From a virus, in IMG/VR virus record IMGVR_UViG_3300030419_004779, positions 5,693-31,447 of that record: 25,755 nt of DNA; one strand, written 5' to 3'. Made by a program: the position numbers and the translations under genes. Every line of letters begins with the position of its first letter. The stretch's first letter is position 1. This document shows, piece after piece, positions 3,001-22,629 of the stretch. The notes under the pieces are model-generated. The model was not told where the DNA came from. It ran no database searches and saw nothing but the letters and a program-made list of their open reading frames with translations.

Positions 3001-4673
3001 TCGTCATTGCTAGAAATGGATATAATTTCCGACGAGGTGATATAATTGAACCTATTGGATTAGTAACACATAGAAATTTAATATCTGCAATAGAACGTTT
3101 CCAATTGAGTGTTGATGAGGTTTATTCTGATTCATTTGGTGCTTGGCAATTTGGTGAACTTGATTATATTGATACTATTGAAAATTATCAAGATGGTGCA
3201 AGAACAAGATTCCCATTATATTACAATAATGAATTACTGAGTTTTGAGAAACAGGAAGGAAGTGATGTAGAACTTCAAAATTGTTTATTGATCTTTATGA
3301 ATGGAATTCTTCAAGATCCTGGTGAGGCATATGTATTTGAAGGTGGAACTTCATTCTCCTTCCTTAAAGCACCAAGAGTTGAAGATAAAGTTGATGTCTT
3401 CTTCTACAGAGGCACAAGAGGAGATGATGATGAATTAATTACTGATATCCATGAAACTATAAAGAGAGGAGATATAGTACAAGCATTACAAAATAATGCT
3501 ATTACTGGTGTTGGTACTGAAGGTACAACATCTCAGGACAAGAGAACCGTCTTCGATTTATCATATTCCGATAAATTTGAAACCAATCTATATGGTGGTG
3601 CTGGAATAGATGAGATTAATTATAAACCACTTGCTTGGACGAAACAAAAAATTGATAAGCAAATTAATGGTGAAATGGTATCTAAAGCAAGAGATTCCAT
3701 TGAACCATTAGTATTCCCTACAGCAAAAATAATTGGTAATGTTGCAACTGGGGATAGTGAGATATTTGTTGAAGATGCAGACCTATTTGATTATGATGAT
3801 GCTTCAGATTTTGCCGGATTAGTTGTTTCTGGTGATAGTCCAGTTTCAGCTGCAATAACTGCTATTGTATCTGCTGCTGGTACTATCTCATCACTTGATA
3901 TTGTTAGTGCTGGTTCTGGATATGTTGGGGCAACAACTGATATTTGGATTTCTGCTCCATATGGTGTCGGTATTGGAACAACTGTGAGAGAAAAATATGC
4001 AGTTGCCGGAGTTTCAACTTTTGCAGAAGCAACTGCTACTATCACTAATGGTTCAATTACTGCTGCTACTCTTACGAATATAGGTTTAGGTTATTCTCAG
4101 ACAACTCCTCCTCAAGTATTAGTACCATTCCCGAATCCAACATATGAACTTGTTTCATCTATTGATATTATTCAAGGATTCTCAGGAATTGTAACTGGAA
4201 TAACTACAACAACAGTTGGAGTTTCTACTTTAGGATTTGAATTCTACTTGAGTAAAGATACCACTGGATGGACTGGACTTGCAGCAGGGAATCCAATTTA
4301 TATTTTTGATACTACTGTAGGTCATGGTGGAACATCTATTGATAGATCTGGAAGTGATGCTGCTGTAGTTGGTATAGGGACTACTTTCTTAGATAATATT
4401 TACATTATAGATTCTCAATCTACTTCCGATAAAACAGGTATTATTACCTGCTTAATGGCAAGTAATCCAGTTGGAATTGCCACTACAATGGGTACTTCTG
4501 AAATAGGTAAGTTCTCTTGGGGAAGACTGGGTGGAATATCTAGAGATTCTTCACCGATCTCTATAGGAATTACTGGATTTACCGTTAATTCTGGATTAAC
4601 AACGTTCCCAACAATTCAAAGAAGGAATGCTGGTATAAGAAGTACTGGTGCACTTCCTAAAAAAGTTGATTAA
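1..4673 (+). CDS. Large tail/baseplate structural protein in the T4 gp7 position (5' end outside window)
   Basis: The reading frame is open from base 3 without a stop, so the gene begins upstream and the ATG at 333 is internal. At least 1556 residues are visible. It lies directly before gp8, the place T4 gives to baseplate wedge initiator gp7 (1032 aa). I cannot match it to gp7 by motif, so that assignment is positional inference. The protein is rich in Gly, Thr, Ser and Ile, as expected of beta-structured virion proteins. Bases about 1440-2775 encode tandem modules, each opening with an AVYTPATG-type strand and carrying a Cys...His...YPRSTDP motif. Gly-Tyr repeats of the type also seen in gp14 lie near 2805-2862, 3897-3970 and 4075-4130. 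Bases about 3180-3430 encode a globular block including the motif LLIFMNGILQDPG. No transmembrane or signal segment is visible in the part present. Virion structural role is fairly sure; exact baseplate role is not. Confidence 0.75.
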   Translation, partial: YGKIVASSFSECFYKEIDRVNIPVNLEYGNITESLVLKQYNAINGTRIDRLDFDLESDGIPIFAKTFNPQDASTLNLSTGQFTIENHWFRTGEALTYTPKSTYVGVGSTAMTYGIGHPLPSVVYAIREDDDNFKLATTRSNAMAGTSVSFGSSGEGNNHELAMVKSSEKALITIDNLAQYPLLYTPLVHTLSGNAGGQIGTASTIFALSGISTIGPEDILRIDDEYMKVTSVGLGTTAIGPITGVGNSTLIQVDRGFVGSSATAHTDDTTVRLYKGSYNIIGSKIYFTAPPRGNPQLPLVDISNIPSAKSDFAGRVFLRNDYTSNQIYDDISGQFTGIGRTFDLTVGGANTAGIGTTGGNGIVFINSVFQTPTTVNNPLNNYKLDDVGRTGITSITFSGITTTNSDGSRGNQFLSESDVNLNQVPRGGLIVSLGSSGGIGYAPLIGAEVMPILNASGAISDIVGIGTTLGPVSRSPLSISTASYNNVTGILSVTTTRDHGFVLGITDDVEMVGLHFACDSAHSGVTTTIFPDASNNYPFHITGISSANTFSAKVGVSTIVHNYVGQGTVMSWHGDLSFGSGYNDIVSVSIGVTDKGYDHKFVSAATNAITGSSGPWTPTNAVYESHTGKLTLTIPSHGRTSGNIQIVQESLKFTCDRDNHQTYHYYPRSTDPAGGASNLSLTKIDNDTISVIVGAASSGKNASISAHPVGINTHIFRGATSNGIRRLSGTPGDLTATNAVYTPATGIMTVTTATHSLSAETTKNVTDAVYTPATGIMTVTSSSHGFSNGNFIKFEDSSLTFKCSKDGFVTDHTYPRSTDPIYNKWVAISNVTTHTFEVQVGTAVTDGNFTHTWAGGTASNAIKKANSWIGIATGSMSFTCAQDSHQSVHTYPRITDSAHWDSVNVTGIESVPNSTTFTINVGKSTNGSGGALTFNIDNAGTDYKNPEIYVSSPSYENLEVNGISRLSGGTDTGTGLLLDVSVSGTSTSGIGSEVYNVDSFVIARNGYNFRRGDIIEPIGLVTHRNLISAIERFQLSVDEVYSDSFGAWQFGELDYIDTIENYQDGARTRFPLYYNNELLSFEKQEGSDVELQNCLLIFMNGILQDPGEAYVFEGGTSFSFLKAPRVEDKVDVFFYRGTRGDDDELITDIHETIKRGDIVQALQNNAITGVGTEGTTSQDKRTVFDLSYSDKFETNLYGGAGIDEINYKPLAWTKQKIDKQINGEMVSKARDSIEPLVFPTAKIIGNVATGDSEIFVEDADLFDYDDASDFAGLVVSGDSPVSAAITAIVSAAGTISSLDIVSAGSGYVGATTDIWISAPYGVGIGTTVREKYAVAGVSTFAEATATITNGSITAATLTNIGLGYSQTTPPQVLVPFPNPTYELVSSIDIIQGFSGIVTGITTTTVGVSTLGFEFYLSKDTTGWTGLAAGNPIYIFDTTVGHGGTSIDRSGSDAAVVGIGTTFLDNIYIIDSQSTSDKTGIITCLMASNPVGIATTMGTSEIGKFSWGRLGGISRDSSPISIGITGFTVNSGLTTFPTIQRRNAGIRSTGALPKKVD
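1440..2775 (+). repeat. Tandem Cys/His/YPR repeat modules within the large baseplate protein
   Basis: Inside the first gene, a beta-strand opener of the form (T)NAVYxxxTGxLTVTxxxHG recurs near 1446, 1857, 2211 and 2298. It is followed by a 20-residue block with Phe-x-Cys, then one or two His, then Tyr-Pro-Arg. Clear copies of this block are at 1959-2018, 2403-2462 and 2634-2693, and a decayed copy lacking YPR is at 1548-1607. The module starting at 2211 is cut short after about 29 codons. These repeats look like serial small beta domains. I know no assigned function for them, although similar blocks occur in marine T4-like structural proteins as far as I recall. Confidence 0.7.
2211..2341 (+). 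repeat. 40-bp exact direct repeat, 87-bp period, in frame
   Basis: Bases 2215-2254 and 2302-2341 are identical over 40 bases. The match extends three more bases upstream beyond a single A/G mismatch. The offset of 87 bases is 29 codons, so the frame is kept. Both copies encode the strand AVYTPATGIMTVT that opens a YPR module. Conservation of synonymous positions indicates a recent duplication or slippage event that created a partial module. Confidence 0.9.
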
Positions 4674-4717: not shown

Positions 4718-6274
4718 ATGCCAGCCGTCGTAACAGATCAATTCAGAATATCAAATGCAGGCAATTTTGTAGATTCTGTACTAGATACCAATAACTCTTA
4801 TTATGTCTTTTTAGGACTTCCGAATCCTGCAGTTCCTGTGTCTGGTTTTGGTAGAACTACAAGCGATAGTAGATGGGATAGTAATACACCATCTCCAACT
4901 GATAATCTCCAGTATAGTTCTCACTACAAGAACACTGCAATGTTTGGGAGAAAAGTTAGTAGTGCCAATATTAGAAGACTTATTAGAAAAGTCTCTTGGA
5001 CTACTAATACTCGATATGACATGTATAGGCATGATTATAGTATTTCAAATCCTGCACCAAATTCTGAATTAAGTAGATTATATGATAGTAATTATTATGT
5101 GATTAATAGTGATTATAAAGTTTATATCTGCATACATAATGGCTCTTCTGGAAGTAATCTAAAAGGTAATTTATCTAAAGATGAACCTACATTTTCAGAT
5201 TTAGAACCATCTGCAGCAGGAACAAGTGGAGATGGATATATTTGGAAATATCTATTTACTGTTTCTCCAAATGATATTATAAAATTTGATTCAACAGATT
5301 ATGTTGTAGTTCCAAATGAATGGGAAACATCTACAGACACTCAAATTCAGAATGTTAGGGAAGCTGGTGATTCTGATGTTAATTTGAATCAAATTAAAAC
5401 AGTTTATATTGCAGATGCTGGACAGGATTATTCGGATGGAGTTGTTAGTATTCTTGGGGATGGTACTGGAGCATCAGTATCCATTACTACTAATGATAAG
5501 GGTGCAATAACTGATGCAGTAATTACTGCTGGTGGTAGTGGGTATACATATGGAATAGTTGATTTAAAGACACTTCAACCAAAAGGTGGAAGTCTTCCAA
5601 ATCCAGCTAAGTTAATACCAATTATCCCACCATCAAGAGGGCATGGATATAATATTTACACTGAATTGGGAACTGATAAGGTATTAGTTTATGCTAGATT
5701 TGATGATTCTACTAAAGATTTTCCAGTAGACACTAAATTCTGTCAAGTTGGTATTGTAAAAAATCCAACTACATCTAGTTCTACTACTACAATTTTTACA
5801 GGGAGTGAATATTCTTCTCTCTATGCAATTAAACTTGATTCAGTAGGTTCCACTCCAACTGTTGGTGTTGCAATGACACAAGCAACTGCTTCAGGGGGAG
5901 TAGCACAAGGATATGTCGCATCATACGATAGTCAAACTCAAGTATTAAAATACTTCCAAGATCGTTCTTCATATTTTTCAAATGAAAAGGATCAGACTGA
6001 TGCTACTGATGTGAGTACTGTTTCTAATGTATTAGCATTTGAATCCTCATCTGCCCCTATTGCACCATTTACAGGTTCAGTAGATGAAGCATTTTCTGGA
6101 ATAAAAACTACTATAGATTCTAAAGAAATAAATTTAGGAGTAACCTTTACAGATGGACTTGCTGATCCAGAGATAAATAAAAAGACGGGTGATGTTATCT
6201 ACATTGATAATAGACCTCTTGTAGAAAGAGATTCTCGACAAAAAGAAGACGTTAAAATTATCCTGGAATTTTAA
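4718..6274 (+). CDS. 8: Baseplate wedge protein gp8
   Basis: This is the baseplate wedge subunit that, in T4, assembles with gp6, gp7, gp10, gp11, gp53 and gp25 into the baseplate wedges. The C-terminal stretch GDVIYIDNRPLVERD, ending in ILEF, aligns with the T4 gp8 end (GEMIYMENRPPI...ILFTF). The central GDGYIWKYLFTVSP and DYVVVPNEWE aligns with T4 GDGYVWEYLFEIPP and EYIVVPWPEE. At 518 residues it is much longer than T4 gp8 (334). Part of the excess is an inserted Gly-Tyr repeat block at residues about 225-290 (ADAGQDYSDG, TAGGSGYTYG). The start MPAVVTDQFRI at 4718 follows a late promoter closely; no ribosome binding site is evident. The stop is 6 bases from the next start, so the two genes are probably co-transcribed. 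Confidence 0.93.
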   Translation: MPAVVTDQFRISNAGNFVDSVLDTNNSYYVFLGLPNPAVPVSGFGRTTSDSRWDSNTPSPTDNLQYSSHYKNTAMFGRKVSSANIRRLIRKVSWTTNTRYDMYRHDYSISNPAPNSELSRLYDSNYYVINSDYKVYICIHNGSSGSNLKGNLSKDEPTFSDLEPSAAGTSGDGYIWKYLFTVSPNDIIKFDSTDYVVVPNEWETSTDTQIQNVREAGDSDVNLNQIKTVYIADAGQDYSDGVVSILGDGTGASVSITTNDKGAITDAVITAGGSGYTYGIVDLKTLQPKGGSLPNPAKLIPIIPPSRGHGYNIYTELGTDKVLVYARFDDSTKDFPVDTKFCQVGIVKNPTTSSSTTTIFTGSEYSSLYAIKLDSVGSTPTVGVAMTQATASGGVAQGYVASYDSQTQVLKYFQDRSSYFSNEKDQTDATDVSTVSNVLAFESSSAPIAPFTGSVDEAFSGIKTTIDSKEINLGVTFTDGLADPEINKKTGDVIYIDNRPLVERDSRQKEDVKIILEF

Positions 6275-18744: not shown

Positions 18745-20394
18745 ATGTCTGATGATGTTTATCTAGGTAATCCGAACCTAAAAAAAGCAAATACTCCTAT
18801 TGAATTCAGTGAGGAACAAATCATTGAATTCATGAAATGTAAGAATGATCCAGTTTATTTTGCTAAAAATTATATTAAAATTGTTTCTCTAGATGAAGGA
18901 TTAACTCAATTTGATCCCTATGATTTTCAAGAACAATTAATTCGAAATTTTCATGGGAACAGATTTAATATTTGTAAGATGCCACGACAGACTGGTAAAT
19001 CCACTACTGTGGTTGCATATTTATTACATTATGCTGTTTTTAATGATAGTATTAATATAGGTATTCTAGCAAACAAGGCAGCAACTGCTAGAGAACTTCT
19101 TGGTAGATTGCAAACTGCTTATGAAAATTTGCCAAGATGGATGCAACAGGGTATTATATCTTGGAATAAAGGTTCATTGGAGTTAGAAAATGGCAGTAAG
19201 ATATTGGCAGCTTCTACATCTGCGAGTGCTGTCCGAGGCATGTCGTTCAATATCCTCTTCCTCGATGAATTCGCCTTCGTCCCTAATCACGTCGCTGACT
19301 CCTTCTTTGCATCTGTTTATCCTACTATTACTTCTGGTAAGAACACAAAAGTAATTATAGTTTCAACTCCACACGGTATGAATCATTTCTATCGTATGTG
19401 GCATGATGCTGAACGCAGCAAAAATGAGTATATTCCAACTGAAGTTCATTGGAGTCAAGTTCCTGGTAGGGATGAGATATGGAAAGAACAAACCATTGCT
19501 AATACTTCAGAACAACAGTTTAAAGTTGAATTTGAGTGTGAATTTTTAGGTTCTGTTAATACTTTAATAAGTCCGGCAAAACTTAGAAATCTTGTATATG
19601 AAGAACCTAAAAAGAGAAATGCAGGACTTGATATCTATGAGAGTCCAAAAGAAGAACATAATTATATTATTAGTGTTGATGTAGCACGAGGTTTAGGTAA
19701 TGACTATTCTGCATTTATAGTTTTTGATACTACAGAATTTCCTTATAGAGTAGTTGCAAAATATCGGAATAATGAAATTAAACCAATGTTATTCCCAAAT
19801 ATTATACTTGATGTTGCGAAGGGATATAACAATGCTTATGTTTTAGTGGAAGTAAATGATATAGGAGATCAGGTTGCAAGTATTCTTCAATATGATCTTG
19901 AATATGAAAATATTTTAATGGCATCTATGAGAGGTAGAAATGGTCAGATTGTTGGTCAGGGATTTTCTGGTAAGAAAACTCAACTTGGTGTAAGAATGAC
20001 GGCAGCGGTCAAAAAGTTGGGTTGTTCTAATCTAAAAACTCTTTTAGAGGATGATAAATTACTTACTGTTGATTATGATATTATTTCAGAATTAACAACT
20101 TTTGCACAAAAACATAATTCATTTGAGGCAGAAGAAGGATGTAATGATGATTTAGCTATGTGTTTGGTAATTTTTGCTTGGCTTGTACAGCAAGATTATT
20201 TTAAAGAAATGACGGATAATGATGTCCGTAAAAGAATTTATGAGGAGCAGAAAAATCAAATAGAACAAGATATGGCACCATTTGGATTTGTTTCAGATGG
20301 GTTTGAAGATATAGAAAGTTTTACTGATGATGATGGGGATAGATGGCATGTAGATGAGTATGGAGATAGATCTTATATGTGGGATTACATGTAA
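18745..20394 (+). CDS. 17: Terminase large subunit gp17 (ATPase-nuclease)
   Basis: Packaging motor that docks on portal gp20, hydrolyses ATP to pump DNA and cuts the concatemer. Residues 80-87 are the Walker A motif PRQTGKST (Lys85). Residues 170-175 are Walker B ILFLDE with Asp174 and catalytic Glu175. Residues 207-211, STPHG, are the coupling motif III. The RNase H-like nuclease has three acidic sites: Asp312 in SVDVARG, Glu369 in LVEVND and Asp468/469 in CNDDLAM, matching the T4 triad Asp401/Glu458/Asp542. It has 549 residues against 610 in T4, the difference being mainly a shorter N-terminus and linkers. All key residues are present, so it should be active. The acidic C-terminal tail (residues about 505-549) lies after the nuclease. 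Codons 163-187, over Walker B, use C-ending codons unlike the rest of the gene. Confidence 0.97.
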   Translation: MSDDVYLGNPNLKKANTPIEFSEEQIIEFMKCKNDPVYFAKNYIKIVSLDEGLTQFDPYDFQEQLIRNFHGNRFNICKMPRQTGKSTTVVAYLLHYAVFNDSINIGILANKAATARELLGRLQTAYENLPRWMQQGIISWNKGSLELENGSKILAASTSASAVRGMSFNILFLDEFAFVPNHVADSFFASVYPTITSGKNTKVIIVSTPHGMNHFYRMWHDAERSKNEYIPTEVHWSQVPGRDEIWKEQTIANTSEQQFKVEFECEFLGSVNTLISPAKLRNLVYEEPKKRNAGLDIYESPKEEHNYIISVDVARGLGNDYSAFIVFDTTEFPYRVVAKYRNNEIKPMLFPNIILDVAKGYNNAYVLVEVNDIGDQVASILQYDLEYENILMASMRGRNGQIVGQGFSGKKTQLGVRMTAAVKKLGCSNLKTLLEDDKLLTVDYDIISELTTFAQKHNSFEAEEGCNDDLAMCLVIFAWLVQQDYFKEMTDNDVRKRIYEEQKNQIEQDMAPFGFVSDGFEDIESFTDDDGDRWHVDEYGDRSYMWDYM

Positions 20395-20451: not shown

Positions 20452-22629
20452 ATGCCGCTAAATTTAGCATCTCCTGGGATTGTAGTAAGGGAAGTTGATT
20501 TGACATCTGGGAGAATCGATCCCACTTCCGACAGCATAGGAGGAATAGTCGCACCTTTTGCTAAAGGTCCTGTAGAATTACCAACAACAGTTGAGAATGA
20601 GAACGATTTATTAGATACTTTTGGAAAATCTTATGATACAGATAAGCATTTCGAGCATTGGCTAGTTGCTTCATCTTATTTGGCGTATGGAGGAGATCTG
20701 AGAGTTGTACGAGCAGACGATGATGATCTAAAGAATTCAGTTAATACTGGTGCAACTGCAATTAAGATTAAGAGTACTGAACATTATGAGAATCTTGGAT
20801 ATGATGAGAATATTATTAGCAATGTAGTAACTATTGCTAAAAATCCAGGATCTTGGGCCAATGGAATTAGAGTAGGTGTTATTGATTCCAAATGCGACCA
20901 GATTGTAACAGTTGCTTCTGCTACCAATTTTGTAGTTGGTGCCGGACTTACCCAAACTATGGTAGGTAAGGTTAATGTTTCAGCAGGAACAACATCTGCA
21001 TTTGATGGATACCTAAAAGGAATTATATGCAATATAAGTGGAACCAATATTGGAGTTAAAGTCCTTTCTCATGTTTCTGCTGCAGGAACTGAAACTGCTG
21101 TAGATTATCAGCCAGGTGGCGCATATCAATTTGATACTACCAATAATGTAACTGTTAGAACTAATGCTGGTATTTCAACAGCTACAACTAGTGTTAGTGG
21201 AAGTTTAGATTATTTCGATCAACAGAAACTTGCAACTGCAACTGCAACTGTTGGTGGTGCAACAACAACTACTACTGTTAACTGGAATAACCTTGCAGAA
21301 CGTCCAGGTACTTCAGATTATGCTTCCGCAAGAGGATCAAGATTTGATGAAGTTCATGTTGTTGTAATTGATGGAGATGGAAAAGTTACTGGAAATGCAG
21401 GAACAATTCTTGAGAAGCATTTAAGTCTTTCTAAAGCAAAGGATGCTGAATTCTCTGCAGGTTCTCCTTCTTATTGGAGAAAATATCTGAAGAGTAATTC
21501 AGATTATATCTTCGGTGGAAGTGGTCCAGCTGGACTTACAACTGGTGGATTTGCTGCTGGTGGATTTACTCAGACAACTGATAATACATGGGATCAGGAT
21601 GCTGAAGGTATTATCTTTGGTGGAACAGGAACACAGAATTATACTTTCCAAGGTGGAGTTAATTATGATGGAACAAATGATCTTACGGCATCTGGAGCAT
21701 TAAGTGCATCTGTTTCTAAATTATCCACTGGATATAAACTTTTTGAAAGTGATAATTATGCTGTAGATTTCTTAATCATGGGATCTGCAAATTATACACA
21801 AGCAAGCGCACAAGCACTTGCTGAACAGTTAATTGCTGTTGCTGATCTTAGAAAAGATTCATTAGCATTTATCTCTCCAAATAGAACTGCATTCTTAACA
21901 GATTCATCTGTTGGATCTGTAACTATTAATAGTGATGAAACAATTACTACTAATGTACTTGCTTTCTATGCATCAATGTCGTCTTCGTCTTATGCAGTAT
22001 TTGATAGTGGATATAAGTACATGTATGATAGGTTCAATAACACATTCCGTTATGTTCCTTTAAATGGAGATATTGCTGGTTGTTGTGCAAGAACTGATTC
22101 TAATAGTTTCCCTTGGTATTCACCAGCAGGAACACAAAGAGGTGCAATTTTAAATGCAGTCAAGTTAGCATACAATCCTACTAAAGCTCAAAGAGATAAA
22201 CTGTATTCCGCAAGAATTAACCCAGTTATTTTCTCTGCTGGTTCTGGAATTGTTCTCTTTGGAGATAAAACTGGACTTGCTAAGGCATCTGCATTTGATA
22301 GAATTAACGTTCGCAGATTGTTTATTTTCCTTGAGAATGCAATTGAATCTGCTGCTAAAGATCAACTCTTTGAATTCAACGATGAAATTACAAGAACTGG
22401 TTTCATAAATATCGTTGATCCTTTCCTTCGTGATGTTCAAGCAAAGAGAGGAATTCAAGATTATGTTCTTGTTTGTGATGAGACAAATAACACTGCTGCA
22501 ATTATTGATAATAATGAATTCATTGCAGATATATACATTAAGCCTGCAAGGTCGATTAACTTCATCGGTCTTACATTTGTCGCCACTAGAACTGGCGTTT
22601 CATTCGAAGAAGTTATCGGTAACGTTTAA
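20452..22629 (+). CDS. 18: Contractile tail sheath protein gp18
   Basis: Sheath subunit that polymerises around the gp19 tube and contracts during injection. The start MPLNLASPGIVVREVDLT corresponds to T4 MTLLSPGIELKE. LLDTFGKSYD, near residue 53, and YLAYGGDLRVVRADDDD, near residue 78, match T4 LVNTFGQP and FLQYGNDLRVVRA. The conserved C-terminal sheath core runs from about residue 500 to the end (PGTQRG, FDRINVRRLFIFLENAIE, FIGLTFVATRTGVSFEEVIG). At 725 residues it is longer than T4 gp18 (659), the excess being in variable surface domains at residues about 130-450. The first and last roughly 20-30 codons are richer in C-ending codons than the middle. It has its own late promoter and strong ribosome binding site, and gp19 follows after 19 bases. 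Confidence 0.96.
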   Translation: MPLNLASPGIVVREVDLTSGRIDPTSDSIGGIVAPFAKGPVELPTTVENENDLLDTFGKSYDTDKHFEHWLVASSYLAYGGDLRVVRADDDDLKNSVNTGATAIKIKSTEHYENLGYDENIISNVVTIAKNPGSWANGIRVGVIDSKCDQIVTVASATNFVVGAGLTQTMVGKVNVSAGTTSAFDGYLKGIICNISGTNIGVKVLSHVSAAGTETAVDYQPGGAYQFDTTNNVTVRTNAGISTATTSVSGSLDYFDQQKLATATATVGGATTTTTVNWNNLAERPGTSDYASARGSRFDEVHVVVIDGDGKVTGNAGTILEKHLSLSKAKDAEFSAGSPSYWRKYLKSNSDYIFGGSGPAGLTTGGFAAGGFTQTTDNTWDQDAEGIIFGGTGTQNYTFQGGVNYDGTNDLTASGALSASVSKLSTGYKLFESDNYAVDFLIMGSANYTQASAQALAEQLIAVADLRKDSLAFISPNRTAFLTDSSVGSVTINSDETITTNVLAFYASMSSSSYAVFDSGYKYMYDRFNNTFRYVPLNGDIAGCCARTDSNSFPWYSPAGTQRGAILNAVKLAYNPTKAQRDKLYSARINPVIFSAGSGIVLFGDKTGLAKASAFDRINVRRLFIFLENAIESAAKDQLFEFNDEITRTGFINIVDPFLRDVQAKRGIQDYVLVCDETNNTAAIIDNNEFIADIYIKPARSINFIGLTFVATRTGVSFEEVIGNV

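Follow-up and report, generated by a model that had tools for sequence, protein, structure and literature searches.

A recombining block around the Walker B motif of the terminase gene probably circulates among marine T4-like cyanophages

Why does an AT-rich phage carry a short run of codons ending in C in an essential gene? The stretch of DNA analysed here (the window; 25,755 nucleotides, positions 5,693 to 31,447 of the 31,447-bp virus record IMGVR_UViG_3300030419_004779) raises this question at gp17 (18745..20394, + strand), which encodes the 549-aa terminase large subunit (TerL) of a T4-like cyanophage, with matches to phrog_2 (E 2.6e-78) and to the Pfam families Terminase_6N (E 4.4e-22) and Terminase_6C (E 1.5e-14), and with a nucleotide identity of 77–81% to gp17 of P-SSM2, S-SKS1 and S-SM2. 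A preliminary description had reported that 16 of the 25 codons 163–187 (19231..19305, +) end in C and that this island covers the catalytic LDE site, and had proposed either a former intron or intein site or a small recombination tract. The count was confirmed: C-ending codons make up 4–7% elsewhere, and the 16 observed compare with 2.3 expected for the encoded residues at the codon usage of the window (z = 9.9); 500 simulations of all window genes reached at most 8.0. The position was borne out as well, as the motif ILFLDE (codons 170–175; 19252..19269, +), which from general knowledge of TerL ATPases we take to be Walker B, lies inside the island. The second-highest C-ending peak in the 25.7 kb falls at the 3' end of gp18 (22549–22623, z 5.7), and a weaker one in the first gene of the window (3339–3413, z 5.1).

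Codon-by-codon comparison of the window with 80 IMG/VR loci and 8 phage genomes, 89 sequences with the window counted, divided them into 58 whose island has 10–16 codons ending in C and 31 in which it has 0–8. Vertical conservation of the same codons in all relatives, the pattern that the preliminary description had set against its own proposal, was thus not found, 31 of the 89 being AT-rich. The surrounding sequence exists in two amino-acid versions, A (GMSFNILFLDEFAFVPN) and B (GGSYNVIFLDEFAFIPN), each with a C-rich form (Ac, Bc) and an AT-rich form (At, Bt); after removal of near-copies the set held 40 Ac, 10 Bc, 18 At and 9 Bt sequences.

The C-ending island proved to be the centre of a larger unit. 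Low synonymous divergence and near-identical runs between diverged pairs delimit a shared block of about 180 bp, gp17 codons ~146–205 (19180..19359, +), which spans Walker B up to the C-motif. The original tract was therefore correctly centred but too narrow, since a left arm (codons 149–163; 19189..19233, +) and a right arm (codons 187–200; 19303..19344, +), neither of them C-rich, also belong to it. In C-type relatives the synonymous conservation of these arms even exceeds that of the island: AAT, ATA, AGT and GTC are each found in 40 of 40 Ac sequences in the left arm, as are TTT, TCT, TAT and ATT in the right arm, which has the lowest synonymous divergence in gp17. Across the block, synonymous divergence among Ac sequences (n = 40) is 0.18–0.8 of the gene mean, with the minimum of 0.18 from codon 186, and among Bc sequences (n = 10) the minimum is likewise 0.18, in the comparison window starting at codon 181; outside the block the ratio averages 1.00 (sd 0.10 for Ac, 0.10–0.14 overall). 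The At and Bt sequences show no comparable dip over the block, their minima being 0.62 and 0.70.

Most of these counts come from metagenome contigs, and isolates were added as a check against chimeric assembly because metagenome assemblies could fake block sharing. Among 21 distinct C-type genes (20 isolates and the window) the synonymous ratio in the block is 0.35–0.81, as against 1.00 (sd 0.08) elsewhere, and mean identity is 0.82–0.90 in the block versus 0.69–0.75 outside it. At the right arm the ratio is 0.18 in Ac contigs and 0.35 in C-type isolates. Two contigs carry frame-shifting deletions over Walker B (L466:3942-3948 and L491:1882-1915) and several others end inside the block; together these are probably assembly breaks at shared sequence.

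Among the genes gp14–gp20 the dip is specific to this part of gp17. Elsewhere in the gene, windows with equal amino-acid conservation, including Walker A, have synonymous ratios of 0.99 in isolates and 0.84 in contigs, compared with block means of 0.58 and 0.51, respectively. None of the genes gp14–gp20 dips as low as gp17, the lowest ratios in one and the same mixed set being 0.68–0.80 for gp14, gp15, gp16, gp18, gp19 and gp20 and 0.55 for gp17. A megablast search with the 25 kb returned 153 records and, among the matches listed, most cyanophage records match gp17 only. A search of one limited collection of papers found none on this gp17 block.

How similar two phages are within the block does not depend on how similar their gp17 genes are elsewhere. 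Among 2875 contig pairs at most 85% identical outside, 468 have a longest near-identical run of at least 60 bp, 425 of them with its centre in gp17 codons 140–220. Phages of ~76% identity elsewhere have stretches of 170–190 bp in common with one mismatch; the pairs L078/L011 and L055/L025 are examples, with 1 mismatch in 168 nt of block and 75–76% identity elsewhere (triplet test for L055/L025, permutation p < 0.0004). In isolate pairs at most 80% identical, 128 of the 154 exact runs of at least 32 bp fall in the 20-codon bins covering codons 140–199. Across two backbone clades of contigs, distances in the block correlate with those in the rest of gp17 at r 0.11 only, inter-clade distances equalling intra-clade ones; the correlation is 0.3–0.5 over most of the first 235 codons and 0.66–0.78 from codon 235 onward. 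The ATPase half of gp17 is thus mosaic, and the block is its extreme. In isolates r is 0.35 for the block, 0.42–0.43 in the two windows that overlap its core, and 0.62–0.90 in windows clear of the core.

Single exchange events can be read directly. Outside the block the sister phages S-CAM9 and S-PRM1 share 93% identity; inside it they differ at codons 165, 169, 172, 175, 179, 180 and 183. At six of these sites, with silent changes, S-CAM9 agrees with S-SCSM1, to which it is 73% identical elsewhere (permutation p < 0.00015), and around the core it agrees with S-PRM1, so that the arms are unchanged and the core (codons 165–183) is swapped. This micro-conversion and the tally of synonymous sub-haplotypes identify the island as the exchangeable core of the block. 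For the window itself, a triplet gives 12/17 donor-like sites in the block (p 0.003, but permutation p 0.23), and permutation p for window triplets is 0.15–0.23; the test is weak here because the whole ATPase half is mosaic. Taken together, block identity between diverged genomes is far above that in the rest of gp17, and relationships inside the block depart from those outside it in correlations and triplets alike. Cyanophages of different genera share and swap the block while the rest of their gp17 has drifted apart. Of the two proposals in the preliminary description, the recombination tract is accordingly supported, by the sharing, by the gene-independent similarity and by micro-conversions readable in isolates, and it is larger and far more widespread than one genome had shown.

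Co-infecting tailed phages are known for mosaic intragenic recombination, in which patches pass between diverged homologues with breakpoints in conserved sequence. We suggest that the gp17 block probably circulates in this manner among marine T4-like cyanophages, by short homologous recombination with the C-ending island as its core. During co-infection, the near-identical arms (codons 149–163 and 187–200) would let otherwise diverged gp17 genes pair, and patches of ~55–190 bp would be swapped with the protein unchanged, so that the ~180-bp block would be passed on by mini gene conversion. The C-rich version appears typical of the Synechococcus-phage gene pool and comprises at least three synonymous sub-haplotypes, and the AT-rich phage of the window carries a C-rich copy that has probably not been smoothed to its own codon usage. 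Recombination during co-infection would be the route, by which the window's copy, too, was presumably acquired. As in mosaic phage recombination generally, patches of the gp17 block pass between diverged homologues; unlike general mosaicism, the exchange recurs at one block of ~180 bp across genera, with mostly silent differences in the core.

Recombination alone does not account for everything. It leaves unexplained the low diversity in the arms itself, as distinct from how that diversity is structured, and the identity of the right-arm codons between C-types A and B; a constraint on the DNA could add to recombination in the arms. We considered whether a specific agent keeps the block circulating, either a nuclease with its target in the Walker B DNA or a packaging or replication site acting in cis. 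Such an agent is possible but on the whole doubtful; if it exists, a small drive-like or functional DNA element is hidden in an essential gene of many cyanophages.

The first form of this idea is that the exchange is due to a site-specific nuclease, a homing endonuclease or that of an intein, which cuts the block or DNA next to it, with the silent sub-haplotypes as resistant targets. A recurrent break would yield just such a sharp, position-specific block, and homing elements do invade gp17 in these phages. An HNH-like homing endonuclease gene abuts the start of gp17 in 10 of 10 contigs in which it was found (L508–L517, e.g., L508:1474-1959, +), and matches PHROG 'homing endonuclease' (E 2.9e-8 for L475/L508) and, under the Pfam cut-off, an I-TevI-type DNA-binding stretch (E 6.6e-5); it had no match in isolate phages. 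In L410 (5399-8022) a split intein of the AceL/GOS-TerL type sits at codon 264/265, and its two halves enclose a GIY-YIG endonuclease gene. Its Int-N junction reads FE followed by CLDGNTSIEILDENNTIQKISMENLYKRL and its Int-C junction SNGIISHN followed by CEFLGS, and Int-C matches the engineered CatC (6dsl; E 1.3e-51), which was built from AceL- and GOS-TerL inteins (PMC11766414). In more distant relatives inteins or other insertions occur at Walker A (~codon 83) and at codon 207/208, and in Campylobacter phage IBB_35 intein pieces together with a MobE-like gene interrupt TerL close to Walker B.

None of these elements, however, lies inside the block in the loci searched. No insertion was found in codons 148–204 in any of 249 cyanophage-like loci covering codons 140 and 212, or in the isolates fetched, and two intein-junction patterns placed inside the block had zero matches in IMG/VR. 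Two degenerate junction patterns did match, but at natural Asn residues, and served only to enlarge the sample; an Rfam search of six loci that were interrupted or otherwise odd detected no intron. The former intron or intein site proposed in the preliminary description thus finds no counterpart among cyanophage-like loci, the distant IBB_35 alone being interrupted nearby. The HNH gene also travels without the block: its copies are 97–100% identical at the DNA level in phages whose gp17 codons 41–186 differ by ~20–35%, and near-identical copies adjoin both A- and B-type blocks with diverged codons 41–146, from which it follows that the spread of this gene did not carry the block. We therefore reject it as the driver. 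The split intein is ruled out by its position outside the block, and codons 241–300, which flank its site, are not homogenised. Finally, divergence is least in two arms and not at one point. A nuclease thus appears unlikely, although, were it the cause, homing would be aimed at an essential catalytic motif, with silent recoding as the only escape. A 75-aa zinc-finger ORF named 'endonuclease VII' lies 3' of gp17 in most relatives (L391:1280-1585; phrog_4723, E 1e-33), with no Pfam nuclease domain found; it was rejected as a driver, being present irrespective of block type and absent from the window and from L001.

These observations set the block apart from the nearest known systems. In the T4 model, homing endonucleases bring about local conversion by phage essential genes, with nuclease genes at the exchange boundaries (PMC10448857). 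The gp17 block resembles this in its local homogenisation of an essential gene, with homing genes adjoining gp17 in some relatives, but it has no linked nuclease gene, and the HNH gene moves separately. Among mycobacteriophage TerL inteins one, TerL1-e, is inserted in Walker B (PMC5050341). The functional motif is the same, but the cyanophage block contains no insertion and the mycobacteriophage cases belong to other terminase families. The atypical split intein AceL-TerL/GOS-TerL (PMC11766414) is present in the gp17 of the L410 cyanophage, but outside the block.

In its second form, the specific agent would be the block itself, a cis-acting DNA element such as a packaging or replication signal with silent sites under selection. 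Both arms are indeed near-invariant at synonymous codons, including the less common choices ATA, AGT and TTG, and the A and B C-types have much of the right arm in common. Still, AT-type relatives lack any such constraint in the block, and the variable sites are linked in sub-haplotypes that move from one backbone to another, a pattern not expected from constraint alone; we consider this explanation rather improbable.

Preference for accurate or fast C-ending codons at a catalytic motif is very unlikely as the cause. Each of the four divergence groups does have its highest C-ending excess at Walker B, if only a weak one in the most distant group, and three of them have another maximum at the C-motif; part of the C-richness is for this reason older than these exchanges. 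Codon choice thus contributes to the C-richness, but Walker A has no C-ending excess, and invariant residues of the block have TTT, TAT and ATA as fixed codons. Codon choice explains neither these nor the lost tree-like structure, and would not make block similarity independent of the rest of gp17. Constraint by RNA secondary structure is more improbable still, the RNAalifold consensus that pairs the two arms in Ac-type sequences being no better than control windows (codon-permutation z -0.43 for Ac, +0.16 for Bc).

Three further candidates were discarded. In-register ORFs of an antisense gene over the block are broken by stops in 9 of 40 Ac sequences and in 13 of 21 C-type genes. A second copy that might serve as donor was absent from the window's 31-kb record, and each of 137 phage records showed a single place only. 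GC-biased conversion would suit the GC3 peak of the core but not the T-ending right arm, where divergence is least.

Phage classification makes wide use of terL; where the gene holds a block exchanged between genera, short amplicons can be misleading, reads can be recruited wrongly and metagenome contigs can break. The gene also offers a precise place to study what determines recombination frequency in diverged phages, since Walker A is just as conserved but lacks this kind of exchange.

Some gp17 loci are of separate interest. Interruptions at Walker A (~codon 83) were found in L135, L306, L280, L284, L229, L221 and L246; L284 has a second interruption at codon 207/208 with an intein-like start (VVS followed by C), and L221 a second at 264/265. 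L516 (340-2992) carries an insertion at codon 264/265 together with the upstream HNH gene. The TerL of IBB_35 (L090), annotated only as a misc_feature, has an intein in Walker A, and the intein pieces near Walker B flank the MobE-like gene. Two neighbouring genes in the record of S-SRM01 (L086, MW015081.1) seem to carry each other's names, 'tail sheath' and 'terminase large subunit'.
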